From NCBI GenBank assembly GCA_035235625.1, contig CP141140.1, forward strand, positions 13,660,685 through 13,724,684: a stretch of DNA of 64,000 nt, read 5' to 3'. The stretch comes from Saururus chinensis. Lineage: Eukaryota > Streptophyta > Magnoliopsida > Piperales > Saururaceae. Positions 11,570-56,063 of the stretch are shown in pieces. The translations under genes and the position numbers were made by a program. The notes under the pieces were generated by a model. It searched no databases and was not told the origin of the DNA. It saw nothing but the letters and a program-made list of their open reading frames with translations. Within the stretch, counting starts at the first letter, position 1. Each line of letters starts with the position of its first letter.

Positions 11570-13807
11570 CCAAACCCAGCGATTCCATAATCAAGGCTTA
11601 GAGCTTTAGTTGGAGAATGCATGTGCCAACATGCAGGGTTTCTAGCAAAACAAATATCAGGGCAAGTAAATGTCAAGTATTGCAAAGCTCCAACAATCTG
11701 ACGCTAAAACGTATGATTGTGAAACAAACTATCTTCAGAAGAAGCTGCTATAGGAGTGACACATGGCTTGCAAAAACCATACTTGCATGTTGTAGCAAAT
11801 CAGAAGCGTACTTACGTTGAGACAGTTGCAGGCCAATAGACGAGGTGTGAAAGTCAATGCCCAGAAAGTAGTTGAGAGGGCCTAAATCCTTAATTGCAAA
11901 CTCATAGCTGAGTTGAGTAATAATAGACTGAATGTAGTTATTGTCTAGACCAAGAATGAGAATATCATCAGCGTAAATCATTAGGATAGTGGTAACACCT
12001 ACTGAATATGATATAAACAGAGAAGGATCAACAACACTGGTGTGAAAATCATGAGCTTGTATAAAATTGGAGAATCTAGAAAACCATTAATGTGGTGCAT
12101 GTTTTAAACCATAAATGGCCTTCTATAGCTAACAAACATGTGATGGACAGTTATAATTTACAATATCCAGTTGAGACATATAAATTTTTTTATCGAGTTA
12201 CCCATGAAGGAAAGCATTGTTGACAACAAGTTGGCGAATAGACTAAGAGTATTGTACTGCAAGAGAAAGAAAAGTTCTTATTGCTAATTTCTATACCACT
12301 GGTCTAAAGGTATCATAATAATCAATGTCTTCCCCTTGTTGATATCCCTTTGCCACAAGATGTGCTTTATAATGAGCAATAGAACCATTTGGGCTCCTTT
12401 TAATATGAAAAACCCATTTAGAACCAATAACATTCTAAGCACACTGAGCAAGAACTAGAGACCATGTGCCTTAAGAGACTAATGCATCATATTCAGAAGA
12501 TATTGTCTGCCTCTAGTGTGATGACTTAATTGCTTGTGTAAAACTAGTTGGCTCCACATCAGACAAATCAGAGGATGATATAGCATAAAGACTAAGTGGA
12601 ATTTATAGCTTGACAATACTAGATTAGATTTGGAGCAAGTGGTCATAGGATGAACTACTGGATAGGAAGATGCAGGAGAAGGGATAATGGCAGAGGAGGA
12701 GATCAAAGAAGAAGAGTTGGCCTGACATGGCATTGTTGTAATAGAGGATGCCTGATTAAACATGGAAGAGAAGATGAGAGGGTATGACAGGTGAGAGGAA
12801 AAAGAGAAGGAACGGTTGGATAGGAAGGAGAAGAGGAAAAAGAGGAAAAATGATAGACAAATTCTAAAAACTTGACATATAGAGAGATAAAGATTTTGCA
12901 AGTTGACTATCATAACAATGATATCCATTGGAAGCATAGTAGTAACCAAGAAAGACACACATTCGGGAATTAATTAGGAAGGAGCTCATGAGAGTTATAA
13001 GGATGAAACCAAAAAACAAGCACACCTAAAAACTTTAAATGAAGAGTAATAAGGTAGAACACTATAAAGCAATTGAAAAGGTGAATTATTATCTAAAACA
13101 GAGTTGGGCAAGTGATTGATCAAGAAATTGGTAGTACAAAAGGCATCATACCAGAATGGAAAAGGTAAAGATGCGGTTTGAAGCATAGCCAAACTAGTTT
13201 CTAAAATATGAAGGTGTTTTCGTTCTGAAACACCGAACTGATGGACAATACCACAGGAAGAAAAATGGTTTTGAAAACATTGATTAACATATTCACCCCT
13301 ATTTTCATAGTGGAAACATTGAATTTTCAAGTTGAATTGTGTCCAGTCGTTGGAAATGTAAAAAATAATCAAACACCTGAGACTAGGATTGAAGAGGATA
13401 TAACCAAGTAAAGCGAGTAAGATCATCAATGAACAAAATGTAATAACGAAAACCATTTGTGGATGCATATGGAAAAACACCCCAAACATCACTATGAATT
13501 AAAGCAAAAGGACAAGAGACTATAGATTCAGATGGCAAAAATTGTAGTTTATGACTTTTACAACTATAACAAGTAGGACAATGAAAAGAAGAAAGATCAC
13601 TGAGAGTAACACCTAGGTGAGAGGCCAACGGTTGAAGCTTGGAAGCTGACAGATGACCAAGACATTTGTGGAGAAGGGAAATGGAAGACTGAGTCATAAA
13701 AGCTAAAGAAGAAGAGACAAAGGAATATACTGGTTAAAGACCATTCTTACTGGGTCCCTAAAAAATAATCTCCTCCAAATGATGATCCTAAAGAGACAAA
13801 CTATCAG

Positions 13808-17114: not shown

Positions 17115-18922
17115 ATCAGCATTAAAAATTACATTACAATTGTTGTATTTGGAAAAATAATGCAAAAAAAGTAAATTGGCTGAGAAACTAGGAACATGAA
17201 GAAGATTATCTAATTGGAATTTGGGAGTAGGAGTAGGTAATATACCATTACCGATATGTTGAATAAGCATTGTTTGACCTTTACCCACACCACACTATTT
17301 TGACCATTGTAGGGTGTGTAATTCTGAAGGTTATCAAGATTAGCTATAATATAATGGGATGCTCCAGTATCAGCAATCCAATAATTTTGTTCGGTTGAGC
17401 AGATGTAGCTAACAAAGCAAGTTGTATTCTAGACCCATTATGGAGGGGAAGAAGATGTTGGAGCTTAATAGGAGAGATCAAACTAATGAAAACAATGAGG
17501 AGCTTGATGATTAGTACGTCCACAAATTTGACATGTTGTTGATGAAGATGGCACATAATACCCATTAGAAGATAGAACTAATGAGTTCTATTACATAGAA
17601 GGCTAAAAATTGGGTTGATAAAAAAATGACCATGGCCGTTGTTAGCTCTGTCACCACGAGAATTACCCCTTCCATGGTTAAAGTTGCTACGATGAGTAAA
17701 TATGGCATTGACTGGATCAATAGGCAAATAAGCAGATTTAGAAGGCAAATAAAGAGCTTGATCTGCATATTTAGATTTTTTTTATTGTTTTATTCAACTG
17801 ATAGCATGACATGCAATTCTTCTATTGTAATTGGAGCAAAGCGAGCTTGAATTGAGGTAAGAAATGATGTATATGTTGAAGGCAATTCATTAAGAGTGAT
17901 CAAAATTAAATCCTCTTCATTAAGAGCAACAGACGAGGTAGCTAATTGATTTGCTAAAACTTTAATTTGTTGCAAATAATCCATCGTAGAAGAATTGCCT
18001 TTAGATATATTATGCAACTGAGTCTTTAATTGCATGACATGAGATGGAGTAAGAGGCATATAGCACCTTTCAAGAGACTTCCAGCATTCAAATGTGGAAT
18101 GAAGCCCAATAACATAGCTCAGTACAAAAGAAGATATTGTAGCATGTAAGCAGCTAAGCAGATGACTGTAAGACACATACCATTGAATGAAATCAGGATT
18201 AGAAGCATACTTTTATGAATCATCATGTACAGTCAATGAAGGTTTTGCATAATCAAACTCCAAAAAGTGCAGAAGTTGATAAGGTCTGAACAAATTGTAA
18301 ATTTGTGTTCTCCAAAATTTGAGATTTATCAGGGACATAATGTGAGAGATCAAGAAGTTCACATAAGGAGAAAGGTAAGGAATTCTGAGTTTTGCGAAAG
18401 ACGATAGTGTTGAAGCCATCTTTCAGGCGAGTGAAAATTGGATATGAAAGAGGAGCAGACCAACATGAATCTCGTTCTGAAGTAGATCGATGAAGGCCAA
18501 AATCTTGTTATGGAGAATATTGATGAAGACCAAAAAACTCTTTTGAGTAGATCGATGAATACCGAGAACTTGTTCTAGAGCAGATCAATGAAGATCGAAA
18601 TCTCATTCTGAAGCAGATCGATGAAGACCAAAAAACTCATTCTAGAGTAGATCGATGAAGACCAAAATTTTTGGAAGAAGAGAATGTGGGCTACAAATAT
18701 GATGGAAGGCCAGGATATGGAAAAAGACAAAGGTCAGATGGCTTTGATACCATGTACACATTTTCAATTTCATATATTTCGCTCTTAAGCATAGCTTTGT
18801 AGGATTATATTATTTATACTTACTATTTGCATAGCAATTCAAAAAACCTGTTACATATCTTGCAATAACAAACAAAACAAATTTGCTGACGACATTGTTT
18901 TGACTGGTCAACTATTCTTACA

Positions 18923-27216: not shown

Positions 27217-27688
27217 GGCCTCCTTCCCCCTCCCAGTTTTCTTTTCTTCTTAACAACATCTCAGAGTCAAGTCTGTTCAGGTTCGAGACCTTTTCAGTCC
27301 TGAACAGCCGCCTTTCTCAGCTCTCTCTCTTACTTTCATGTCTCTTTAATTCTTCTCAGACCCAATAGCAGCTTTCACCTTCATCTGATCGACTTGTCTG
27401 ACTTTTATATGGTGGCCTATCTACCCATTTGGAAAACAAAAGCTTTTATAGGTCAGGATTGACATAGGATTCATCCGGCTTGAATTTGAAATTGGAGCTT
27501 ACTGGCCTCCTTCCGGTGCAGTTTCCTTGGTTTTTAGGGCCAGAATTTCCAACATCCTACCAATAGACGTATATGAATTTTCTTAACAGACAACGATTTC
27601 TTGTGTTCCTCGATTTCGTAGGCCGTGTATAGAAGAAACTCTTCTCTCTTCCGGGTTTGTGTTGATTTTGCACCAGGCGTTTTAAGCA

Positions 27689-29010
27689 ATGGAAAATTGC
27701 CCTACTATGGACAAAGGTGAAGACCATATAGAACTGCCTCCGGGCTTCCGATTCCACCCGACAGACGAAGAGCTCATAACCCACTACCTTTCGAAAAAGG
27801 TTCTTGACAGTGGCTTCATTGCAAAAGCAATAGGCGAAGTCGACCTGAACAAGTGCGAGCCCTGGGATCTTCCAAGTAAGTCTTCCGTGGCTAGATTGCT
27901 ATTTTGTTGTGACAGCTCTTTGAATTTAATTTCTGATTTGTAACTCTCCATTCATCTGTTTTTTAATGCAGGAAGAGCCAAAATGGGAGAAAAGGAGTGG
28001 TACTTCTTCTGTGTAAGAGATAGGAAGTACCCAACTGGATTAAGGACGAACAGGGCCACTGAATCTGGCTACTGGAAAGCTACGGGGAAAGATAAGGAGA
28101 TTTACAGGGGAAAGACCCTAGTTGGTATGAAGAAAACGCTTGTTTTCTACAAAGGGCGGGCTCCCAAGGGAGAGAAAACCAACTGGGTCATGCATGAATA
28201 TCGTTTGGAGGGAAAATTCTCACTGTACAATCTCCCCAAGACTGCAAAAGTATGCATGAATTCCTGTGTCTGATTCTCTTTTATCTTTAATTATGCTTGA
28301 TAATAATATGTTGGTATTATCTTAAATATTTCTTATTAACGAATATTTTATGGTAATTGGGTTTCTCTTCCCTCTGTTCATGGCAGAATGAATGGGTGAT
28401 TTGCCGGGTATTCCAGAAGAACTCCTGTGGGAAGAAGACACATATACCGGGGCTAATGAGGCTGAGCTCACTTAGGGACGACATGGGTCTTCTGCCACCA
28501 TTAATGGAGTCGCCCTACAGCAACTCAATCAAAAGTGCCATGTCCGAGCCGGCCCACGTGACCTGCTTCTCCAACCCTGTGGAAGCCCAGAAAAGCCAAG
28601 AGCAGATGATTGACTCATTCACATCTCCTCTGTTCTTCGCTTCTGAGAATCCTTCCAATATTCCACCCTCCTCATTGATTCTACCCAAAACCTCATATCC
28701 CGCCTCCATGTACACAAACCAGGGAGTCTCAAGCATTGGAAGTTTCCATTACTCAAACTCTGCTCTGATGTCAGATCAATCAATTCTGAGGGCTTTGTTG
28801 GAAGGCCATGGATCCGGCACGAAGCAGAACTCCAGAGCAGAGAAGGAGATGGTCAGCCTGTCACAGGAGACAGGGCTTACCACAGACATGAACGCTGAAA
28901 TCTCCTCCGTAGTATCCCATCATGAGATGGGTCGGAGGTGTTTTGAAGAGCAAGAAGACCCATCGACTACTGCAGGGCCTGTTGACATCGACTGCCTCTG
29001 GACCTACTAA
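27689..29010 (+). CDS. NAC-domain transcription factor, ANAC100/ORE1-like clade (miR164 target type)
   Basis: Three exons, 27689-27875, 27972-28249 and 28387-29010, with GT-AG introns, give 362 residues. The NAC domain spans about residues 14-167. Subdomain A is [20 protein letters not shown] is [17 protein letters not shown] is [20 protein letters not shown] is [18 protein letters not shown], and E is [11 protein letters not shown]. The intron positions are those usual for NAC genes. The variable C-terminal half has [10 protein letters not shown], which encodes the miR164 site, and ends [11 protein letters not shown], as in the ANAC079/087/092/100 group. Family knowledge: these bind CACG-core promoters as dimers in the nucleus and act in leaf senescence, ageing and organ development. 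The gene is complete and intact. The exact orthologue within the clade cannot be set without a tree. Confidence 0.93.
28553..28573 (+). promoter_or_regulatory. miR164 complementary site in the third NAC exon
   Basis: The 21 bases end in ACCTGCTTCTCCA (28561-28573). Compared with perfect complementarity to conserved plant miR164 there are three mismatches: the two 5'-most target positions, which pair with the miRNA 3' end, and the ninth. The seed-pairing side and the bases around the cleavage position (10/11 of the miRNA) match. The site sits in the codons for HVTCFSN, as in known miR164-cleaved NAC mRNAs. Cleavage is inferred. Confidence 0.85.
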
Positions 29011-39618: not shown

Positions 39619-39756
39619 CTATAATGCAAGTTTACATGTAGACATAAAAGAATGAGAAGGGAAGGCAGGTCGATCAGTTGTTACTGCCTTACTGGCACCT
39701 ATGGGCCATGAAGTTGTTTTGAGGTGGTCAACAAAGCTACTCCTCTCCTCGGTGAA
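39619..39756 (-). pseudogene. Severed 3' end of the pectinesterase-inhibitor-like gene
   Basis: Read on the minus strand from the target duplication (39757-39761), this continues in the same frame as the gene part ending at 47033. It adds 45 residues (starting FTEERSSFVDHLKTTSWPIG) and a stop at 39619-39621. With the 167 residues on the far side, the pre-insertion protein was 212 residues, a normal PMEI-family length. The 7.3-kb insertion now separates it from the rest, so it is not expected to be translated unless the insertion is removed from the transcript. Before the insertion is considered, the piece is just a short frame entering LTR sequence. Confidence 0.75.
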
Positions 39757-39761
39757 GTTAT

Positions 39762-41277
39762 TGTTGGACCATGGTATGGGCTCGGGCCCGGTTTGGTCTA
39801 ACGGTGTCGCGGTCCGGGTGAGCCGGTATGGGCTACGGGGTCCAAGGGTGGTGGGGGCGGTCGCGCCGACCCCACATGTACCTTCGATACACTTAATTCG
39901 AGTAGGACCCACATATGTCACACACGTACACTAGACATACATCTAGGCGTGCATTTACACATTGTGGGGCCCAGACGCGCGAATTAGGTGTTGAGGGTGG
40001 AACCCACGTGATAATCGAGGGGTCGACTCTGTCGCGGGCTTGGCCGTGTGCAGGGGGTCCAGGCCTCCGCGGGCTATGTGGGACAGAGCCCGCTCCCGTT
40101 GTGTTAGACCCTCTTGTTAACCGGAATGATGTTGTCAGCTTGGCCCATTAGTTTTCAACCCACTCAAAAGCCCATTAAGTGAGCCAAATTCAAACACCGC
40201 CTTAATAAGGAAAGGGGGGTTATAAAGGGAGTGAATTAAAGGAGAATTAAGGGGATTTTATTTCATTCCATATGAAGGGTCGCGCCGACCCCACATGTAC
40301 CTTCGATACACTTAATTCGAGTAGGACCCACATATGTCACACACGTACACTAGACATACATCTAGGCGTGCATTTACACATTGTGGGGCCCAGACGCGCG
40401 AATTAGGTGTTGAGGGTGGAACCCACGTGATAATCGAGGGGTCGACTCTGTCGCGGGCTTGGCCGTGTGCAGGGGGTCCAGGCCTCCGCGGGCTATGTGG
40501 GACAGAGCCCGCTCCCATTGTGTTAGACCCTCTTGTTAACCAGAATGATGTTGTCAGCTTGGCCCATTAGTTTTCAACCCACTCAAAAGCCCATTAAGTG
40601 AGCCAAATTCAAACACCGCCTTAATAAGGAAAGGGGGGTTATAAAGGGAGTGAATTAAAGGAGAATTAAGGGGATTTTATTTCATTCCATATGAAGGGTC
40701 CCCCCCCCCCCCCCCCCTCCCCCTTTTTGGATTAATAAAACTGATTTTCGGAATAGTGTTTGGCTCTCCTATTTTCTCCCAATTCTAGATCTCCCCTTAC
40801 TATCCCTTTATCTTCCTTTGGTGCGGCCTACATTTTCTTTGAGAAAAGCTGCTGGCCGCCCTTGCTCTCCCTCCTAAAAGGTGTGTTTGGCGGGCTGAAA
40901 GAGGAAGAGGGATCTCTTCCTTGGCTGGGATTTGAAGGCTGAAGTAAAGGGTTGATCTTGCTGAATTTCGTCATCAATCCAAGCACGGTATTGAGGGATC
41001 TGCACATAAGAAAGGTAATCCTTAATCTCCTCCACTAGATCTGTCTTTTGACGGATTAGATCTTCAAGAAGAGGGCGTGCTAGGGCTGTTTTGGCCCAGG
41101 TCAGTTTGTCATCGCTCCCATTTTGTTTATCTCCCTTTGATTATATGTATGTGTTGCATGTTTATTGCTAATTTGATTTAGTTGTGCATGTTTATTGTGT
41201 AGATCTTGTAAAGTTTCAATTTTTATGTGCGCCAACCTCTCCCACCACTGCTTTCTTTGCTGGCCGGCCACTCTACA
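39762..41277 (+). mobile_element. Left LTR of the composite Copia element
   Basis: From TGTTGGACCATGG to CTCTACA, 1,516 bp, of which 419 bp is a tandem duplication (so about 1.1 kb in the undoubled form). It holds an 18-C run (40700-40717) and a TTAATAAAAC polyadenylation-type signal at about 40731-40741. The primer-binding site follows within two bases. Confidence 0.75.
39859..40697. repeat. Near-perfect 419-bp tandem duplication in the LTR
   Basis: GGTCGCGCCGACCCCACATG begins at 39859 and at 40278, and the copy ends at about 40697. The two units differ at only about two positions that I can see, near 40097/40516 and 40122/40541. A third, more diverged copy lies inverted at 45561-45953. Confidence 0.92.
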
Positions 41278-41676
41278 GTAGTATCGGAGCCATTAGGGGG
41301 AGGTTGGGTCGCTGATTTAGTAGAAATCCAATTAGTGTTACCCGATCTAGGTTTAGATCGGTAAAATTGGGGTTTTTAGCCTAAATCGTATGATCTACTA
41401 TTCGAATCAAAGGGATTTTCATTTTGACATGATTATAACTATAATTAGCATGTTTCTGAATGATATGGCTGCTGGTTGCATGTGATTTGAGTTTAAATTG
41501 AGTTTTTTATGCATGATTGTATGCATAAGGGCATAGTGGTCATTTTGCCACATTATTTTGTGCACATTTTTTTCTCTAATCATGTTTTTTGGGCACACAG
41601 TCCCTACTAGACAGTAAGGATATTTTAAATTATTTATTGTGTTAATAAATTTAATTTAATTGCATAAGGGTGTAAA

Positions 41677-42024
41677 TTGACCAAAATAGCCCTAGTGACA
41701 TTTTGGACAATTCACATGTGCATTCTGTGTGCTTAATATAGTTTTATCCAGATCTGTTATTCTATGTGTTAATAACTTGCTGTAGTTACTGTAAAATTTT
41801 TTGGTGTGCTGTTTGAGGGCAAAAATTACCAAAATAGCCCTAGGGTCATTGTGGTAATTATACACCAAAAATTTTTCTGGACAGAATCTGAATTTTCAGC
41901 ATCAATTAGAATTTTCTTTTTTACTGGAATATATCTGAAAATTTTCTGTGATTAATTTTGGTGTGCCCTTAAGGGTATAAATTACCAAAATAGCCCTAAG
42001 GGCATTTTGGTAAATATATACCAA
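41677..42024. repeat. Three spaced hairpin motifs in the Copia leader
   Basis: Imperfect inverted repeats of the form TTACCAAAATAGCCCT/AAGGGCATTTTGGTAA at about 41677-41711, 41825-41860 and 41990-42024. Each is followed by TTTTCTGGACAGAAT-like sequence in the last two. The same set is present in the inverted copy (about 46380-46715). Confidence 0.7.
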
Positions 42025-45000
42025 AATTTTTCTGGACAGAATTTTAAATTCCAGTAGCCTCTAATTATGTTTATTTGCTGATTTATATGCTGGGTTTTAT
42101 GTTTTGGGAATTCTAAATTCATAAAACAAATAGATACCTAATTAGGGTAACATCCTTTAAGGGGTTAAGGGGTTATTTTTGGAAAGTAACTCAAAAACCC
42201 TAATTAGGTGATTCTAATTAAGGAAACTCAACATAATATACTCAAGTTGTCCCTAGGCTTATAATTAGATTAAGAGTTTGTCTAAGAAATTATTTTTAAT
42301 TAGAAGCAGTTAACTTTCCATAAATAGTTCTAATTCCCTGTTCACTACCTGTTTCCTTGTAGATAAACAATGGCCTCCAAAATGGTAACTGCCGAGTTAG
42401 GAAAAACTGAGAAACTTAATGCTTATAATTATCTGGTGTGGAAGAGAAGGATTCACCACATCCTGACTCTTTCTGATCTTGCTCATGTACTTAAGTAGGT
42501 CATTGAGCCACCACCAGAGAATGCATTAGCTGATCAGTTTTTAGAACTTGAGAGGCTGAGAGGGGATGATAATAAGGCTAGGTTCACCATTCTTACTTTT
42601 ATGGAGCCTAAGATAGAACGACTCTTTGAGAAGTATAAAACTGCCAGAGAGATGCTAGATGCAGTGTCAGTGAGGTATGAGGAGCAGACTAAGGCTCATA
42701 AGAGGATGCTATACTCTAAATACCAAAATTCCAGGATGGGGGAAGGAGATGATGTGAATGAGCACTTGAGTGTCATGGTCATCATAGTTGATGACCTGGA
42801 GACATTGGAGGACCCCATCTCTGAGGGAATCTAAGTGTCAACAGTGTTGAACAGCCTTCCCAAATCTTGGGAGAATGTAGTGATCTATCTGAACATGAGT
42901 GACCAGAAGATCACAATGGAGGCTATGACTGTCAAGCTTAGGCTTGAGGAAGAAAGGAGGAACCATGTGAAGGCTTCTGGGGGTTCTGCTACTGCCAACC
43001 TGGTACACAACTCTGGTGGGGGCAAGAAAGGTGGATAGGGGCCTGGTCACTCTAAGAAAGCTTTCAAGAAGAAGGGGAAGAAGCCTCAGAATAAGGGCAC
43101 TGGAAAAGGGAATGAAAAACCCAAAGGTGTATGTTTTAAGTGTGGCCAGATGGGTCACTTTAAGGCTAACTGTCCCCAGAAGGATAGCCATTCAAGCAAG
43201 GACAAGGGCAAGAGCGAGGATATCGTCTGTGTTGTCTCTGAAGTGATGCTTACTGACATCAAGGAGAAGACTTGGTGGCTGGATTCAGGAGCTTCTGTGC
43301 ATGTTTCCTACTCTAGGGGAACTAGGGGCGAGATGGTCAATCTGATTCCATGCCAGAACAAAGTCTTCATGGGGAACAACACGTACTGCGAGGTGGAGGC
43401 TATGGGGAGCTACAAGATTCCTCTAAAGAGTGGGTCTAACCTAATCCTGACAGATGTGTTCTTTGCTCCTTCCATCAGAAGGAACCTGATTTCAATCCCT
43501 GTTTTGACCAAGAAGGGGTTTGAGGTTAGGTTCAAGGGGAGTAAGGCAATTGTGGGTAAGGGTGGGATAGTTTTATTTGCTACTTCTTTAATTAATGGAT
43601 TGTACTGCTTAGATGTAATAAACTCTGTTGAATCTAATGAAATAAGCGCTTCTGAGTATATTGTTTTGTTTGTGGATGATGTTTTACTTTGACATATGAG
43701 TTTGTGCCATGTAAATGTAGATAAACTACATCGAATGTCGAGTGCTAGGTTGTTACCCAAAATATCCAAAGACCTACGTGTGTGTGAGGATTGCTTATCG
43801 GGTAAGATGAGCAGGCAATCCTTCTAAAAGGGACAAAGGGCAAATAAATTGTTAGAGGTAGTACATTCTGACATTTGTGGGCCCCTGAATGTTCAGACCC
43901 ACAAAGGCATGACGTATTTTATTACATTCATTGATGACTATTCAAGATACGGGTACATGTATTTAATAAGCAGGAAGTCTAAAGCCTTAGATAAATTCAA
44001 AGAATTTAAAGCTGAGGTAGAGACTCAGTTAGGTAGGAAAGTAAAAATCCGGAGGACTGACAGGGGTGGCGAGTACACCTTTGACCTGTTTAAAGATTTC
44101 TGTACCGATCAGGGAATAGTTCACCAGTACACCCTACTGTACACTCCACAACAAAATGGAGTGGCAGAAAGGCGTAACAGGACGCTTATGGACATGGTAA
44201 GGTCCATGTTAAATCACTCTGAGTTAGGAACTAACTTCTGGGGTGAAGCTTTAGACACCGCCGTGTACATCCTTAATTGTGTACCAACAAAGGTCGTCCA
44301 ACGGACACCTTATGAGTTATGGACGGGTCGACATCCAAACTTAGGGCATCTTAGAGTGTGGGGGTCTAGGGTACACGTAAAGGTGCCTGACCAGCATAGG
44401 TCAAAGCTAGACCCCAAGACCATAAAGTGCAACTTTATTGGTTATTGTGATCACTCTAAGGGGTACCGATTCGTGGTTCACCACACGGATGGGACAGTGG
44501 GGGTTGTTAAGTCTAGAGATGCTTATTTCTTGGAAAAAGAATTAAACCCTTATAATTCCTAACAAGAAAGTTGATTTGTTCGAGGTGATTAAAGAGGCTG
44601 GTCCTAGCACTTCCCCAGAGGAAGTAATTGGATCAGATCAAAACTAAACCGAACCAGAACCCAGGGCGTTGAGGGAAAGAAGACCTTCAATTCTGTTGAG
44701 GGACTTCTATACAATGCTAGGGGAGGACAACGTCACGTTAGATGAACCTATTCTATATGACCCTATTACTGTTGAGCAAGCTTTAAGTATTCAAGATGCT
44801 CAAGAATGACAGGTTGCTATTCAGGAAGAGATGGACTCTATCTTAAAAGAATAAGGTCTGGGAGATAGTGGATCCACTTGAAGAGCGAAAGCTCATTGGG
44901 TGTAAATAGATCTTCAAAAAGAAGCTTAAGGCTGATGGGTCAATACATAAGTACAAGGCGAGATTAGTGGCCAAGGGGTTCACTCAAGTGTATGGGATGA

Positions 45001-45560
45001 ATTTTAAGGAGACATACTCACCGGTGTCAAGATTTGACTCGATTAGATGTCTCTTAGCATGCGTTGCTTACTTTGATTTAGAGTTGTACCAAATAGATGT
45101 AAAGACTGCCTTCCTAAATGGAGATTTAGAGGAGGAGATTTACATGGAACAACCTGAGGGTTATGTGATTCCTGGAGAGGAACATAAGGTGTGCAAGCTC
45201 ATAAAATCATTGTATGGCCTAAAACAATCTCCTAGACAATGGTACGTCACTTTTCACAAGGTGATTAGTGAGTATGGGTTCATAGTGAATGAACACGATC
45301 ATTGTGTCTATACCTTCTGGGATGGGACAAGGTATATGATGTTGTCTTTGTATGTAGATGACATACTCTTGATGGGGAATCATCTTAGTATGATAGTCAG
45401 TTTAAAGGAATGACTCAAAACCTATTTTGACATGAAAGACATGGGTGAGGCATCCTACATCATCGGAATGAAAATTAATAGAGATCGAAAGGCTAGGAAG
45501 CTTAGTATATCTTAAGAGTCATACATAGAGAGCGTTATCAAATGCTTCAATGTCATTGGT

Positions 45561-47032
45561 TGGAATGAAATAAAATCCCCTTAATTCTCCTTTAATTCAC
45601 TCCCTTTATAACCCCCCTTTCCTTATTAAGGCGGTGTTTGAATTTGGCTCACTTAATGGGCTTTTGAGTGGGCTGAAAACTAATGGGCCAAACTGATAAC
45701 ATTATTCCGGTTAACAAGAGGGTCTAACACAACAGGAGCGGGCTCTGTCCCACAGAGCCCGCGGAGGCCTGGACCCCCTGCACACGGCCAAGACCGCAAC
45801 AGGGTCGACCCCTCGATTATCTCGCGGGTTCCACCCTTAACACCTAATTCGCGCGTCTAGGCCCTACAATGTGTAAATGCACACCTAGATGTATGTCTAG
45901 TGTACGTGTGTGACATATGTGGGTCCCACTTGAATTAAGTGTATCGAAGGTACATTGTTTATCTATCTAACTCGATAGTTATCATTTTGGAGGCCATTGT
46001 TTATCTACAAGGAAACATGTAGTGAACAGGGAATTAGAACTATTTATGGAAGGTTAACTGCTTCTAATTAAAAATAATTGCTTAGACAAACTCTAAATCT
46101 AACTATAAGCGTAGGAACAAAAAAGAGTATATCATGCTGAGTTTCCTTATTAAGAATTACCTAATTAGGGTTTTTGGGTTACTTTTGAAAAATAACCTCC
46201 ACCACCCCTTAAAACATATAACCCAAAACATATAAAGGATCTTACCCTAATTAAGTATCTATGTGTTTTATGAATTTAGTATTTCCAAAACATATAACCC
46301 AGCATATAAATCAGCAAAAAAACATAATTAGAGGCTTCTGAAATTTTAAAATTATGTCCAGAAAAATTTTGGTGTATATTTACCAAAATACCCCTAGGGC
46401 TATTTTGGTAATTTTCACCCTTAAGGGCACACCAAAATTAATCACAGAAAATTTTCAGATATATTCCAGTAAAAAAGACAATTTTGAATGCTGCTGAAAA
46501 TTCAGATTCTGTCTAGAAATTTTTTGGTGTATAATTACCACAATGCCCCTATGGCTATTTTGGTAATTTCTGCCCTCAAACAGCACACCAAAAATTTCAT
46601 AGCAACTACAGCAAGTTATCAACACAGAGAAATAAAAATATGGACAGAACTATATTAAGCACACAGAAAGCACATGTGAATTGTCCAAAATGCCCCTAGG
46701 GCTATTTTGGTCAATTTACACCCTTAACCAATTAAATTAAATTTATTTTCACAATAAATAATTTAAAAAATATCCTTACTGTCCAGTAGGGACTGTGTGC
46801 CCAAAACGTGATCAGAGAAAAAAAATGTGCACAAAATAATGTGGCAAAATCACCAGTATGCCCTTATGCATACAAGTGCACAAAAACCTTAATTTAAACT
46901 CAAATCACATGCAACCAGCAGCCATATCATTCAAAAATATGCTAATTATAGTTATATTCAAGTCAATGAAAAGCCCTTTGATTCAAATAGTAGATCATAC
47001 GATTTAGGCTAAAAAACCCCAATGGTCCAACA
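45561..47032 (-). mobile_element. Inverted second Copia part (leader plus LTR segment)
   Basis: On the minus strand, from the right: ten bases of LTR start (47032-47023), then a leader copy (about 47022-45985) matching 41370-42390 up to the gag start, then from 45953 to 45561 a copy of the 419-bp LTR unit, where it meets plus-strand reverse transcriptase sequence. The leader arms are therefore about 1 kb of inverted repeat, about 3.6 kb apart. Confidence 0.8.
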
Positions 47033-47533
47033 GTTATTCGGGTCATTGTCGCTCAAATCACCGTATTGGCAAGATTCAAGCTCGTTGCCCATTAAAGCCA
47101 TAATTTCATTCGAAGCCTCTGACGTTGTAGCCTCATGTCCTGATTTGAGAGCCTGGGCTATTTGCATCAAGAACTCTCTGGCTTCACTGAAGCTCACATG
47201 GCATAAGCTCGCTTGCCTTCTGTAGGTGACGTCTCCTCCTGGGTTCGCATCTGCCTCCTTGCCAATCTTTGCTTCCCCATCTGCCTCATTGGCGATGGCC
47301 AGATTGACGTAGATGGCCACTGGTCCGGGGAGGTCGGCGTGGAGACTCTCCGGGGCTCCCAGGAAGATGTTCACGCACGCTTTCTCATTCACATTATAAA
47401 AGTCGTGGGTGGCCCCCTTGTGGCAGAGCTCCTTGATGTACTCAAGGCCAGAGCCCTCTACACAAGGCAAGAAGGCTTGGTTGCCGAAGGCAAGGAGCAG
47501 AAGCAGAGAAGAAAGTATGGAGGTGGAAGGCAT
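47009..47533 (-). CDS. Secreted pectinesterase/invertase-inhibitor-like protein, 3' end replaced by retroelement sequence
   Basis: A single open frame of 174 residues. Residues 1-28 look like a signal peptide (hydrophobic run SILSSLLLLLAFG). After it come four cysteines, C37, C53, C111 and C155, in the order expected of the PMEI fold, plus DLPG (67-70), LAIAN (78-82) and a C-terminal helical stretch after C111 (FSEAREFLMQIAQALKSG). Family knowledge: such proteins are secreted four-helix-bundle inhibitors of pectin methylesterases or acid invertases. Host coding ends at residue 167. The last seven residues (CWTIGVF) and the stop come from the inserted element starting at 47032. The four cysteines are kept, so the truncated protein might fold. 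The PMEI call rests on pattern, not alignment; an unrelated small cysteine-rich secreted protein is possible. Confidence 0.65.
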   Translation of the reverse strand: MPSTSILSSLLLLLAFGNQAFLPCVEGSGLEYIKELCHKGATHDFYNVNEKACVNIFLGAPESLHADLPGPVAIYVNLAIANEADGEAKIGKEADANPGGDVTYRRQASLCHVSFSEAREFLMQIAQALKSGHEATTSEASNEIMALMGNELESCQYGDLSDNDPNNCWTIGVF

Positions 47534-47925: not shown

Positions 47926-48435
47926 GAGGGCTGTTTGTGTATTCTATTTTTGAAAGAATCAGTTGATTTAGCCTCAATTCAGGCTTGAATTACTAAAATT
48001 TTATTTGTGTGTATAAGTTGCACAGAATTAAAAAATTAGCCCTGAAGTTGATTCAGGTCATTTTAAGTCTGAATCGGCCTCAATCACTGAATTCTGTTTC
48101 ATTGTCCTCGTTTTGAAAATTACAGATTTTATTACTTTTCAACAGTTATCTCTCATATCAATTTGAGCATCGAGAAACGTGCCATATAGGTAGGGTCCCA
48201 CATTAAAAATTCAAAATTGCCTACCCTTGTGAGATCTTATTTGATAAAGCTCGAATTTAGAAGTGTAATGGTACCAAGAATGTGCATATCTGAATTCGAG
48301 AGAGAGTTATATTAGTTTAAAGTTTTAAAATTAGGTTTGACGCGGCATCTGAATTTATTCTAACAAATTATATTGCCAAACATAATTCACATTTGGCTGT
48401 GAATTTTTAGAAATAATTCGCTACCAAAATAATTC
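47926..48435. mobile_element. Possible PIF/Harbinger-like MITE
   Basis: The left GGGCTGTTTGTGTATTCT and the inverted right GGGGTCATTTGGGTGCTGAA resemble the GGGCCTGTTTGG class of ends, with TGA/TAA triplets outside. The core has no ORF. The inverted match is weak. Confidence 0.35.
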
Positions 48436-49135: not shown

Positions 49136-50755
49136 TAAATGTCTTATTTTTTAATACACACAAAGAACACACATCGTGTTATTTTATATACGATATGGAG
49201 CATAACATATATATTATCAATAACACGTAATGTTGACATGTCGTGTTATCGTATATACGATATGAAGCATATCGTATTATAGATCACTGGCTCAAAGAAC
49301 ACACATATCGTGTTATCGTTAACACTATATGGCGAATATCGTGTTATCGTATATGCGATATGGAGCATATCGTATTATGGGTTGTCGGCTCAAAGAATAC
49401 ATATCGTGTTAATGATTAACACGATATTGCGAATATCGTGCTATCTTATATGCGATATGGAGGATATCATATTATTGGTTGTCAGCTCAAATAACACATA
49501 TCGTGTTATCGTTAACATAATATGGCGAATATTGTGTTATCATATATACAATATGGAGCATATCGTATTATTAATAATACGTATTATTGACATGTTGTGT
49601 TATCATATATGTGAAATGGAGCTTATCATATTATGGGTCATTGGTTTAAAGAACACACATATCGTATTATCATTAACACTATATGACAAATATCGTGTTA
49701 TTGTATATGCGATATAGAGCATATCGTATTATATATCACTAATTAAATAACACATATTGTGTTATTGTTAACACGATATGACGAATATTGTGTTATCATA
49801 TATGCGATATGGAGGATATCACATCATGGGTTATCGGCTCAAATAACACATCATGTTATCGTTAAGACGATATGAAAAATATTATGTTATCGTAAATGCG
49901 ATATGAAGGATATCGTATTATTGGTTGTTAGCTCAAAAAATACATATCATGTTATCAATAACACGAAATGGTGAATATCAAGTTATCGTATTTGCGATAT
50001 GGAGCATATCGTATTATCAATAACATATATTGTTAACATGTCGTGTTATCATATATGTGTTATGGAGCATATCGTATTATGGGTCATTGGTTCAAAGAAA
50101 ACACATGTCATATTATAGTTAACACTATATGATGCATATCGTGTTATCATATATGCAATGTAGTATTATGGGTTGAAAACTAATCACCACATATCATGTT
50201 ATTGTTAACACGATATGGCGAATATTGTGTTATCATATATGTGATATGGAGGATATTGTATTATGGGTTGTCGGCTAAAAGAACACATATCGTGTTATCA
50301 TTAGCATGATATGGCTAACACATATCGTGTTATCATTGACACGATGCGGTGAATATCATGTTATCGTATATGCGATATGGAGTATTCGTATTATCAATAA
50401 CACATATTGTTAACATGTGTTATGAAGCATATCTAATTATTGGTCATTGGTTCAAATAACACACATCATATTATTGTTAACACTATATGACAAATATCGT
50501 GTTATCGTATATGTGATATGAAGCATATCATATTATGGGTCGCTAACTAAATAACACATATTGTGTTATTGTTAACACGATAAGACGAATATCGTGTTAT
50601 CGTATATGCGATATGGAGGATATTGTATTATGGGTTGCTAACTAAATAACACATATCGTATTATTGTTAACATGATATGACAAATATCGTGTTATCGTAT
50701 ATGTGATATGGAAGATATCGTATTGTGAGTTGTCGGCTCAAAGAACACATAGTGA
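49136..50755. repeat. Palindrome-rich satellite-like array, 1.6 kb
   Basis: About 17 degenerate units. The anchor GGAGCATATCGTATTAT or its variants recurs at about 49261, 49360, 49459, 49553, 49614, 49710, 49808, 49900, 49995 and 50057, then on to 50704. The steps are mostly 92-99 bp, with shorter steps of about 60 bp (49553-49614, 49995-50057). Each full unit carries two short hairpins: CGATATG-GAG-CATATCG, and TCGTGTTA/TAACACGA around TCGT. The whole array is built of ATATCG/CGATAT words. Short frames through it are by-products. Confidence 0.92.
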
Positions 50756-52047
50756 TCATCGTCCTTCAATTGTTACATGTAGTTTAAGCAAATCAAAAAG
50801 TTGTCCGAGAATATCTTGTTGTCACCAGAAACTGGAATCTATTTTTGAATATCGACTATTTCATATATTCGAAACCAAAGTATATTCTATAGCGGAAAGA
50901 TAAACACTTGTAGAGTATTAATTGTTATGGTGTCTGGACTGGGGCAAGAAACAATTGGAGGTGATTAGAGACAAGAAGAGCTTTATTTAGCAAATGTGTT
51001 TAATAGAAAGTCAGACATCATAGGTGTTAATTTTTCTGATATAGGAGAAGTGAATAATAGAGGGACAAGTGAATTAGATAAAGAAGAAAATGAATTTGAC
51101 CAAAATGTGAAAAATGGAAGTTAATCAAATAAACAAGATGCTTCTAGGGTTGATGTTCGAGCACTTGCATGGAGTTTAAGGTTCGCTGAAAGTGCATAGG
51201 ATGTAGAATAGGTTCTTAATGTAACGCCCGGGGTTTTTCTCATATTTTCCTCAAAATTCACGGAAATTTTTTGCAATATAATGTCTGTAAATCGGAGGAA
51301 AAATGACAAAATCAAAACCTGATAAAACAGTTTATAATTTAAAACACTAAACATCCATTTTCCATCCAAATATTTTCATCACACGGTCAAAGCAAATATC
51401 CTCAGGCGCTACTCGAAAACACACGTACGACTAAATTGCTATGATCATAGACTTTTAAATACAAAACACTCCCAGGCATCCCTGAGTGCAAGTCCCATAA
51501 CAATCTACAGTCTAATCCAAACTAAAGTCCAGAAAGAATAAACATCTTAACGTCTCGTCTCACCCAATACATTTGATCGTGGCACAAACAAACTCGTGGT
51601 GAGTCAAACATATACATGAGACAACGGGAATCAATCCACCGCTGAAATGAGCATCCATCTCCAGGAGCTCTCCAACACACACCTGCAAAAGCCTCCCGAA
51701 CCACGGGGCTAAAAATGGTAGGGTGAGTATTTTCATACTCAATAGGAAAATACCCAGTAGGGGAAATCCCAAACGGTGAACTTAAAAGTTCATAAAAACA
51801 CGCGTTCATGCAACTCAAACATGAAGCAGATAGGCATATCAATATCATGCTCATGCACATACAAACATACCAAATTCACCATCGTGCCAAAGTTATACTA
51901 AATGCACCATCGTGCCAAAATCATACCATCAAACAAAACTTACACAAACACCCTTATCCAGGGTCTTACAAACTTACTCGTACCATCGTACGCATACTCA
52001 AACAACTTACCCATACTTGTACGACCTTACTCGTACAATCATATACT

Positions 52048-52310
52048 TACTCGTACGACCTTACTCGTACATCTTACACTTACTCGTGCGACTTTACTCG
52101 CACATCTTACACTTACTCGTGCGACCTTACTCGCACATCTTACACTTACTATCTTGCTCGGATTCATACGCTTACAGTCTTACTCTTACAATTGTACTCA
52201 TACTCTTACAGTCGTGCTCATACTCATACTCATACAGTCGTACTCATACTCATACACTTACAGTTGTTCTCATACACATACGCTTACAGTCGTGCTCACA
52301 CTCATAATCG
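52048..52310. repeat. 33-bp and about 26-bp tandem repeats in the solo LTR
   Basis: CTTACTCGTGCGACTTTACT-type units of 33 bp (about three copies to 52146), then CTTACAGTCGTGCTCATACT-type units to about 52310. Periods divisible by three keep all three plus frames open, which explains the overlapping ORFs here. Confidence 0.8.
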
Positions 52311-52617
52311 TACACATATCAACGACCACTGAAGCTCATTACAACTAATAAGCTCTAGCGTCGAAAAGGAAAAGAATGTCACTGGGGCAACACCTTAACC
52401 TCCGGGGAGTGACTAGACGCCATGGACTTTTCCGAAGGTAAGGCACACCAATGCTCATGGGGCACTGGATCAAACAGGTAAGAGTAGATCCATGATACTA
52501 CTTACCTGAGCGCGCAAACATAAACACCCACACATAAGGGGTCATACAGTTGCCCACCATAATGGGTCTTATAGTGCCAGTGCCACTCTTGGGCAGAAAT
52601 CGTACAGTGCCACTCTT

Positions 52618-52866
52618 GGGCGGAAACATACAACGCTCTCAATAGAGCATCAAACGTCTGGGCTTATACAGCACACAGACCAAATCGGAAACATACTTCG
52701 CTCTCAACAGAGCATTAGACGTCTGGGCTTCATACAACACACAGACAAAGTCGGAAACGTACATCGCTCTCAACAGAGCATCAAATGTCTGGGCTTATAC
52801 AGCACGCAGACCAAATCGGAAACATACGTCGCTCTCAACAGAGCAAAAGACGTCTGGTGCTCTACA
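52618..52866. repeat. About 60-63-bp tandem repeat, four copies
   Basis: Units with CGGAAACATAC, CGCTCTCAACAGAGCA (an inverted-repeat hairpin), GACGTCTGGGCTT and CAGCACACAGAC, repeated four times with few changes. Confidence 0.85.
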
Positions 52867-53639
52867 CAGCACACAAATAACATCCCGTAGGATAAACACC
52901 ATGGCAAGACATGATAAATGCTCAGCTGACTCATTATCGGCTAGCTCAAACACGAAACTTAATTCGTCAAACCCTCAGGTCTCAAACTCACAACGCTACC
53001 ATTAGTTGTGCTTATAATTCAAGTTTAAATTAAGTACATTATGCGGTACAATTATGCCACACAAACTCACAGTCCTCGACTGATCAAACTGAAGCTAAGC
53101 CCGATCCAAAACCTGAGTTCGTCAGGGCAGCAGACTTCCTTAACTCATCCATATCAGGATCAAAACTCATCGTACACCCAAATCTTACAGTCTTACATAC
53201 TCCGCCATCGACCTTATGGTCAAATCATCTTACACTAACATCATCAAAAGAAGCTCCTCAGAGCCAAACCCAGTTGTCTCCCTTTATACTTATACCTCAC
53301 ATATTGAGCTTACTTTTCACTTCATAATCTGTATGTTATGCTTGTACAATTATGCACACTCTTACTATTTGACAATCCTCACCCGTCATACCCATAACCT
53401 CTGTCATCCATCATACGCTTACACATCCATAACCAAATCCAGACAAAACCTCTGTCATCTGACATACGCTTACGCATCCCACATCCAATCTAGATGAAGG
53501 CTCTGTCACCTCTTACTGTCCATCGCCCATACATGCCCACATACACTTACACATAACCATCACATAGGCCATTAGCCATCATACATACGTATGCCTATCA
53601 CACATATGTATAACATACACGTACTTTCATACATAGCTT

Positions 53640-54010
53640 ACTATCATACTCGCTAGCCATCACTAGCGCACATACATACACCTACGTTTAACATACACGC
53701 TAGCCATCACTAGCACATACATACACATTTATACATACATCAAACATACACGCTAGTCATCACTAGCACATGCATACACACGTCAAACATATATGCTAGC
53801 CATCACCAGCACATGTATAATCCATACATACTTCAAACATGCACGCTAGCCATCACTAGCACATGTATAATCCATACATACTTCAAACATGCACGCTAGC
53901 CATCACTAGCACATGCATACACACGTCAAACATACACGCTAGCAATCACTAGCACATGCATACATATGAAACTTACCAACAAACACGCTAGTCATCACTA
54001 GCACATACTT
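53640..54010. repeat. CACGCTAGCCATCACTAGCA array
   Basis: About eight copies of CACGCTAGCCATCACTAGCA (GCTAG...CTAGC forms a small palindrome) separated by CATACATA-rich linkers of variable length, giving units of about 45-60 bp. Confidence 0.85.
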
Positions 54011-56063
54011 ACATCCAACATACTTACAGCCAACATGCATGTCATATGCATTTCAACATACCATATCATCATGCTTACATGCACATCATGCAATCGGATC
54101 GTTACTTAACATCCAAGGCATGGAATCATACAATCCTAGCATGCTGCTACTCATTCAAAGCATGCTATCATGAATTTACGAGTTCAAAGCTCCCCTACAT
54201 CGTAATCATGACGTTTGATGGCGAGCACACGACGGTGGCGGCATTGGCGGTGGAATTGGCGGCCAATAGCTTTGCCAAGTGGAGAGAGCTGTTGTCCCGA
54301 GGATTTTAAGAAGTGCCAGAAACAATCACGGCCAAACAAGGTGTCAGATGTCAAAGCGGCAAAGTCCGCAATCCACAGCGGCACACTAGGGGCGGCCGGG
54401 AGAAATGTCGTGCCAACATAAGTGGCAGTGCGACCAAAAATCGAGGGTGTACTCACTGAAGATCGGCCGGTGGCTAAGACGTGCTCAGCCGGCCACAAGA
54501 CGTCAAAATCGGCTGTGGACAGCACCCAACGGCGGCGATTTCGCGTCAACAAGGGCCCACATAAGGGCGGAGGGCATGAGGTGACTCTCAAGGACAGTGG
54601 AGAGGTGGAGGAGGACTCTAATGTCAACTCCACTTGGTGGCAAAGCCAACCGATGGTCAGGCGACACAAATACAGCGCCTAAACCCAAAAATGCACGCGT
54701 GGCCACATGCACATGCGGCCAAACAGTGCCACTATAGGGGGAGATGGTTTGGACGGTGGCGACCCAAGGCCCACATAAGGGCAGCCGAGCTAAGGCCAAG
54801 ACATGGTGGCCGATCGAAGCGGCGACATCGCCTATCACCACCCACAACCAACACCATGGTGCGGGCGGTTGTACATCTCGCACGGTATAGGGCAATGGCA
54901 AGCAGCCCGTTTCAAGCGGAGTGTAAAATTGGGCCAATCGGGGCTGGCCCTCACTGTCGCCTAGCCGGGGCAGAGCCCACGATGGCCAAATGGCCCACGG
55001 CTCGCCGATGCCAACAACCCGAGACGCACCTAAAGCGTCTAATCGGGCGGAGCAAGGCAATAGGGGCGAAGCGGGGTCGGGAACTGCAACCCCCTACTGA
55101 CATCGGGTTGAGGTAGGCTGGACGGAGTCCTACCGGTGGCCAGACGACAACCGGAAACCCATCGACATCCAAAAAATCTCACGGACAGTGAGATGAAAAA
55201 TGTAAACAAAACCTGACCAAAAGATCGGCAGCTCACAGCGGAGCGCAGAAAGCACGGCGGCGGCTCTAGCTAGCGCCTATGGGTTCCTAGCGGCCAACTA
55301 AACATAAGTCTAGTTGAGAGCGGCCGCAAACGACGTCAAAATCGTACACCCACAACTCAAAAACGGGATTGAAGGAGAGAAAAAACCCGAAAAAGGTTTG
55401 GTACCTCGTGGAGGAGCGAAGAGGCCGTGGCGGCAGTCATAGCCGGTGTCTACGGACTCGTGGCGGTGAGGTAAAGCAGATCCTGACAAGAATCGACAGA
55501 ATCCAACGATGGAGGAGGGAGAACGGAGCGACCGAAATCTGGCTCGGGTTCTCACAAAAGTCACTAGACGTGAAAAAGTTTCTGGGCGAAAACTTACTGG
55601 AATCTGAAGAACGGATTCCATATACTTATATCATTTTCTTTTCAATTTTTCTATCCACGTCCCTAATGCGCGTTAACTCACTGGTTACAAGTTATACCTC
55701 CAAAATTCGCACCGTAAGCGCGCAGCGAGGCCCGTGGCCTATGACTAAGCCCCACACCCGACTCTATGGGTATAAATATGGGAAAAATACATAAATATGA
55801 ATACGCCGAAGCGTCACATTTTCCCGTCGAAAATGACCAGAAAAATCCCAGAAAATCGTATAAAATTCAGGGACATTACACTTAAGTACTTGGAAGATCT
55901 TCTTCTACCCGTGCACTCATCCATGATTAGAGGCTTTGGCATGGAAAAGAAACAGGCTCCTACTGTTGTTGTTGTTGAATGGCAGAAGAAAAGTAAAGAA
56001 ACTACTAATAGTTCAGTTGATCCTAATCTTTTCACCAATAACAATTCTAAACAAAAGTTTTAA

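Follow-up and report, generated by a model that had tools for sequence, protein, structure and literature searches.

A head-to-head Ty1/copia chimera with U3 termini at both ends in a divergent PMEI-like gene of Saururus chinensis

In Saururus chinensis a PMEI-like gene is interrupted by a Ty1/copia retrotransposon insert of 7,271 bp. The insert lies in the stretch of 64,000 nucleotides that we analysed (contig CP141140.1, positions 13,660,685 to 13,724,684; hereafter the window, from whose first letter all positions are counted), in the one genome of the species examined (assembly GCA_035235625.1, 516 Mb, 11 contigs). It consists of the 5' part of one copy, from the long terminal repeat (LTR) to pol, placed head to head with an inverted and doubly deleted second copy. 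This inverted copy finishes in the initial 11 bp of U3, so that each of the two integrated ends is a U3 end. We consider it likely, with a probability of about 0.7, that a head-to-head fusion of two copies took place and that its product then integrated once, through two U3 termini, interrupting the divergent PMEI-like gene. The target-site duplication and both U3 ends are then explained together, since one fused DNA would have integrated through two U3 ends.

The interrupted gene and its protein

The host gene is read on the minus strand. Its 5' part starts with an ATG at 47533 and extends to 47033, comprising 167 codons. Exact copies of the motif GTTAT stand on both sides of the insert, at 39757-39761 and at 47033-47037, the right copy overlapping the host frame; the odds that five random bases are identical are 1 in 1024. 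The insert itself occupies 39762-47032. When it is removed together with one GTTAT, the host frame resumes at 39756 and continues for 45 codons to 39622, followed by a TAG at 39621-39619, so that the 3' part of the gene spans 39619-39756. The rejoined frame is free of stops and encodes 212 amino acids.

These observations support the view that one integration event, with a target-site duplication, interrupted one gene. A first-pass annotation of this DNA had proposed a PMEI-like gene split by a single insertion with a target duplication, and the coordinates, the exact GTTAT pair and the continuous 212-codon frame across it are all found in the sequence. The start and extent that it gave for the frame 47533-47033 are also correct, but the frame does not stop at the duplication. 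Today it reads on into the element (47009-47032, minus strand) for seven codons, CWTIGVF, before a stop at 47009-47011, and the present-day open reading frame is thus 174 codons long.

Judged by its sequence, the host protein is related to PMEIs but divergent, because it matches the NCBIfam model TIGR01614 (PME_inhib), scores 45.2 bits against a profile of PMEIs from its own genome and aligns with that profile at the four cysteines of the family (residues 37, 53, 111 and 155), yet has no match to Pfam PF04043. The TIGR01614 match covers residues 2-142 with an E-value of 1.3e-6 and 27.8 bits, which is below the cut-off of 35.95. The profile was built from 12 PMEI genes, hand-picked from the 99 matches that PF04043 gives in the genome at E up to 0.001, among which the host locus does not appear; the best of 20 whole-protein shuffles scored 0.7 bits against it. 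The relatedness to PMEIs claimed in the first-pass annotation is therefore upheld by TIGR01614 and the own-genome profile, while the comparison with PF04043 that it had proposed gave no match, with E-values up to 10 allowed, for any of the six versions or pieces submitted. In general the protein resembles PMEI and invertase inhibitors in length, in a start that by eye is signal-peptide-like, in the four cysteines and in its similarity to the PMEIs of the genome; it differs from them in lacking a PF04043 match, in falling below the TIGR01614 cut-off and in a C-terminal part that is unrecognisable. The closest relative within the genome, which also has the top of 12 pairwise scores, lies on C8 and matches weakly (E 0.006, 22% identity).

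The PMEI likeness of the severed tail is suggestive at most. Against the own-genome profile the tail contributes nothing, as the score is 45.2 bits with it and 46.1 for the first part alone. A position-specific comparison with PMEI C-termini ranks the continuing frame of the tail over the other two frames, with p-values (0.059 over 24 residues and 0.073 over 30) that are not significant. Local alignment of the tail with the same C-termini gave p-values of 0.40 and 0.75, and a C-terminal hidden Markov model gave no score. A search of the PDB with the host protein returned a single match, to an antibody heavy chain at E 0.9, and a single-sequence structure model of 143 residues, a mix of helix and strand with a mean predicted local distance difference test score of 56, is of too poor quality to be used as evidence on a four-helix-bundle fold.

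When the genome was searched for a second copy of the host gene, only its own two halves and one distant relative were found, and a search with its flank returned, besides the flank itself, only a dispersed repeat. There is therefore no empty-site homologue within this genome on which the insertion could be tested. The dispersed repeat lies at 47928-48333, about 400 bp upstream of the host-gene ATG; with 40 of 2,400 candidates scored, it has at least 42 further matches of 76-86% identity, mostly over these same positions.

Architecture of the insert and its family

On the plus strand the insert begins with an LTR (39762-41277) that runs from the U3 start TGTTGG to the U5 end CTACA and contains, within U3, a tandem duplication of 419 bp that adds to its length. 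The first copy of the duplicated segment, A1, lies at 39859-40277 and the second, A2, begins at 40278; they differ at 2 of 395 compared positions. The junction of this duplication was found at none of the family loci that we fetched for comparison except the window's own. After the LTR follow a primer-binding-site-like sequence, TAGTATCGGAGCC, at 41279-41291, in place of which most of the aligned relatives have TGGTATC[AG]GAGCC, and an untranslated leader (41292-42369). The gag-pol region (42370-45560) is interrupted by stops and frameshifts. Its Pfam domains are, in plus-strand order, Retrotran_gag_2 (5.5e-15), Pol_BBD (4.6e-18), rve (7.9e-11) and RVT_2 (3.1e-50), and a CCHC knuckle can be seen by eye. 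At 45560 pol ends, ahead of the region expected to hold RNase H, and its continuation, present in all 10 aligned relatives, is lost.

From this point to the right end everything belongs to the second copy, read on the minus strand. A fragment of U3 comprising U3 positions 115-509 (45561-45955) is joined to pol at a TGGAA microhomology. Next to it stands an 11-nt templated filler (45956-45966), a copy of the bases immediately ahead of the gag ATG, and then the inverted leader with the first 31 bases of gag (45967-47021). The last 11 bp, TGTTGGACCAT at 47022-47032, are an inverted U3 terminus that abuts the duplication. The insert thus starts with TGTTGG and ends with CCAACA, which is the U3 start in reverse complement. 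Neither these inverted ends nor the head-to-head structure had been remarked on in the first-pass annotation. Followed in its own orientation, the right arm is collinear with an element that has two internal deletions, one from U3 base 12 as far as the counterpart of 41365 in the leader, the other from gag base 32 to base 114 of the U3 in the 3' LTR.

The copia gag and the integrase ahead of RVT_2, as well as the 5-bp target-site duplication, are those of a Ty1/copia element. The two direct LTRs of such an element, with an outer U3 and an outer U5, are absent: the left and right regions match only when inverted, and with no direct terminal repeat between them the insert has no 3' LTR. A normal LTR element is ruled out on this ground. 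Scans for Rfam families and for tRNA genes were both without matches.

The family is large. Sequences matching the U3 start with up to 3 mismatches occur 1,526 times in the genome, and a reversed control 0 times. The LTRs could be paired by script in 8 of the 12 fetched loci (among L042-L050) and are 0.9-1.1 kb long, with Kimura two-parameter (K2P) distances between the two LTRs of a pair of 0.024-0.075. The 5' LTR begins with TGTTGG in 7 of the 8, and TCTACA ends 11 of the 16 LTRs. Five-base duplications flank these elements, exact in seven, one of them being a T run, and with one mismatch in the eighth. With these canonical relatives the insert shares LTR, primer site, leader, gag-pol and duplication length; they have two direct LTRs, whereas it is missing the final part of pol as well as the 3' LTR and has the inverted second copy.

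A propagating family with this architecture is also rejected, because the terminal junction of the insert occurs once in the 516 Mb at up to 3 mismatches and the inner junctions are spanned by no other copy among 40 scored out of 2,286 candidates. Further, the element is not of the DIRS type. DIRS-1 (PMC5633606) likewise is a retroelement with inverted terminal repeats, but there inverted LTRs are a family trait and a tyrosine recombinase takes the place of an integrase; here the pol frame contains an rve integrase core, the LTRs of the relatives are direct and inversion is seen in this one copy alone. No tyrosine recombinase is among the matches of the seven element stretches searched.

Origin of the two arms

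Insertions that resemble this one have been described by Sabot and Schulman in 2007 (PMC1950507). Their complex insertions, some of them Copia, have flanking duplications and three LTRs and were explained by template switching between co-packaged RNAs. As here, a chimera flanked by a 5-bp duplication had integrated once, and two parent RNAs were proposed; for our insert an origin of the parts in different members is likely, not proven. In contrast, their insertions are marked by an internal third LTR, by two complete core regions and by outer LTRs that resemble each other, while here the parts are head to head, one LTR is accompanied by U3 fragments only, and U3 stands at both ends. The best explanation of our insertion is that it is a two-U3, head-to-head variant of these template-switch complexes. 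No earlier description of such a case was found among the titles and abstract openings of the open literature on inverted or palindromic LTRs, template switching, head-to-head elements and two-U3 integration, which does not prove that there is none; the phrase "LTRs in opposite orientation", where it occurs in PMC2151762, refers to a marker method.

In the sequence of events that we propose, two RNAs, probably of different family members, would have shared one particle. Their DNA copies would then have become joined to each other through short microhomologies, either ahead of integration or in the course of it, and the integrase would have taken two U3 ends instead of U3 plus U5. The five junctions have microhomologies of 2, 0-1, 3, 5 and 4-6 bp, a total of 14-17, and under a uniform-base model a total of at least 14 has a chance of 2.6e-4. 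These lengths were read by eye from alignments, as a script that compared whole loci overstated them at the pol join and at the U3 duplication. About half of the probability given to this origin falls on template switching by the reverse transcriptase, and most of the rest on end joining of two partial complementary DNAs that had their U3 ends in a single integration complex.

The arms likely, though not provably, derive from two different family members. Among 395 positions the right U3 has 17 differences to A1 and 19 to A2, and the divergence between the arms is 4.5% in U3 and 9.1% in the leader (K2P 0.091), compared with 0.5% between the U3 copies within the left LTR. As inverted sequences the arms are complementary at 88.6% in the leader and 95-96% in U3. 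We computed trees from 33 U3 and 18 leader sequences, window sequences included, each covering at least 93% of the query. In the best tree of either region the left body has one relative, L052, as its partner, and the right arm is placed elsewhere.

Several points weigh against this origin. The support for the pairing with L052 is moderate, 91/71 in U3 and 90/94 in the leader, and the approximately unbiased (AU) test does not reject trees in which the arms are held together (p-AU 0.171 for the leader, 0.242 for U3). By plain distance the nearest sequence to the right arm is the left arm in both regions. Of the private changes in the right leader 5 of 20 are C>T or G>A, against 10 of 14 in the left, a difference that is unexplained. 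In addition, template switching and end joining are not distinguishable here, the join between pol and the inverted arm is known from one assembly of one accession, and the junction searches covered only the insert's own junctions.

With these counts of C>T and G>A changes, the private changes of the right leader arm (45967-47021) are rich in transversions relative to the left arm, even though both share one locus today.

Two of these results, the AU test and the distance between the arms, are also what speaks for the alternative that survives best, namely that the same two-U3, head-to-head structure was made from a single RNA, by fold-back or self-copying, and that its arms diverged after insertion. 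We regard this as unlikely. It would have to accommodate a divergence of 4.5% in one region and 9.1% in the other next to the 0.5% within the left LTR, the separation of the arms in the best trees and their different kinds of private change.

The inverted orientation and the divergence of the arms would also follow if two elements had inserted independently in opposite orientations at the same GTTAT and a later deletion had joined pol of one to U3 of the other. This is decidedly improbable: the second element must have hit exactly the same 5 bp, the LTR deletion and the templated filler in the right copy become separate events, and the inner join shows no duplication. It is harder still to believe that a normal element inserted first and that replication-based chromosomal repair later exchanged its 3' part for inverted family sequence. 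Microhomology and short templated filler are typical of such repair too, and both are seen here, but the terminal U3 base would then abut the duplication exactly by chance.

We give scarcely more than token weight to an assembly misjoin or a collapsed repeat. A family with 1,526 U3-start matches is hard to assemble, but the duplication is exact, the host frame continues on both sides and the arms can be told apart in an assembly because they differ by 4-11%. Least credible of all is autointegration, a process known for retroelement DNA (PMC2644782), in which the LTR end of a cDNA would have attacked its own interior and the inverted product then integrated; we reject it from the positions of the inner junctions, which lie at U3 positions 11, 115 and 509 and within gag, leader and pol, none of them joining an LTR terminus to an internal site.

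Age, surroundings and consequences

For the ages below, rates of 0.65-1.3e-8 were used. The first-pass annotation had taken the open 45-codon tail as a sign that the insertion is recent, a conclusion that does not hold. The open tail is nearly uninformative on age, because only 13 of the 405 possible substitutions in it create a stop and the half-life of openness is long: 12-25 million years (My) at these rates, or 4-8 My when frameshifts at an assumed 10% are added. An open tail is thus expected to last about 4-25 My once present, and we dismissed it as a clock. By chance a tail of this length is open in 5.1% of cases given the base composition, and in 6.4% under a first-order Markov model of the local flank, which makes openness by itself weak evidence.

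The other estimates are conditional. If the U3 duplication arose in the same reverse-transcription event, the 2 differences in 395 positions between A1 and A2 correspond to 0.2-0.4 My; if it is earlier or later than that event, this date says nothing about the insertion. Distances to the nearest relatives, a K2P of 0.070 for the leader (L052) and of 0.042 for U3 (L050), give rough upper bounds of 1.6-5.4 My. If the arms instead stemmed from a single parent, a divergence between them of 0.045 and 0.091 would place the insertion at about 1.7-7 My, contrary to a recent date. The decay of gag-pol was not used for dating, because a single long gag-pol frame is missing from all 12 fetched loci too, the longest being 693 codons. 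A recent insertion is therefore possible, not shown.

Elsewhere in the window there is a NAC transcription-factor gene with several exons at 27686-29010 on the plus strand, in which two frames with NAM-domain parts (1.8e-16 and 9.7e-30) precede a long 3' frame. Remains of a copia-type element lie at 11748-13733 (RVT_2 2.9e-17, gag_pre-integrs 9.8e-6) and a lone copia gag fragment at 17790-18212 (Retrotran_gag_2 3.5e-12), both on the minus strand. Beyond the host gene there is a complex tandem array at 49205-50724, with units of 94-97 bp, higher-order periods of 161, 256 and 446 and many short palindromes, followed by a minisatellite cluster at 51995-54025 with periods of 26, 33, 50, 65, 100, 131 and 143, parts of which lie beneath long open frames.

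The interrupted allele is probably null, because all of the host protein beyond residue 167 is cut away, and the expected last helix with it. A visible effect on the plant may be absent, as the genome has 99 PMEI-domain matches and the gene affected is a single divergent one.

If the insert is transcribed, its inverted arms are a candidate silencing trigger for the family. Conceivably the chimera, which would also be a natural case of two-U3 integration, is a self-made silencing locus and thereby the counterpart of Mu killer among retrotransposons: read-through from the left U3, across leader, gag and pol and on into the inverted U3 and leader, would give a long hairpin RNA and small RNAs against many leaders and U3s of the family, and the transcript would continue antisense into the PMEI-like gene. 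We think this improbable. The left U3 retains TATAAA motifs at 40221 and 40640, and the duplex predicted for the leader arms has -1425 kcal/mol, compared with -363 for a same-sense control. Perfect pairing with the right arm is found for 157 of 1,015 21-mers of the left leader, and 21-mers of the left arm have matches in the leaders of 11 of the 12 fetched loci and in the U3s of all 12. Against a hairpin, the plus strand has AATAAA motifs at 45569, 46631 and 46753, which could end the transcript before or inside the inverted leader. Mu killer of maize (PMC3440606) is, like the insert, an element copy that has been rearranged and in which family sequence is partly duplicated in inverted orientation; Mu killer differs in deriving from a DNA transposon and in that its silencing is shown, whereas for our insert silencing is only a possibility.

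Aberrant products of reverse transcription should rarely show in genomes, because integration requires usable ends. That such a product integrated with a clean duplication shows which ends the integrase can accept, and the insert may record two RNAs meeting in one particle.

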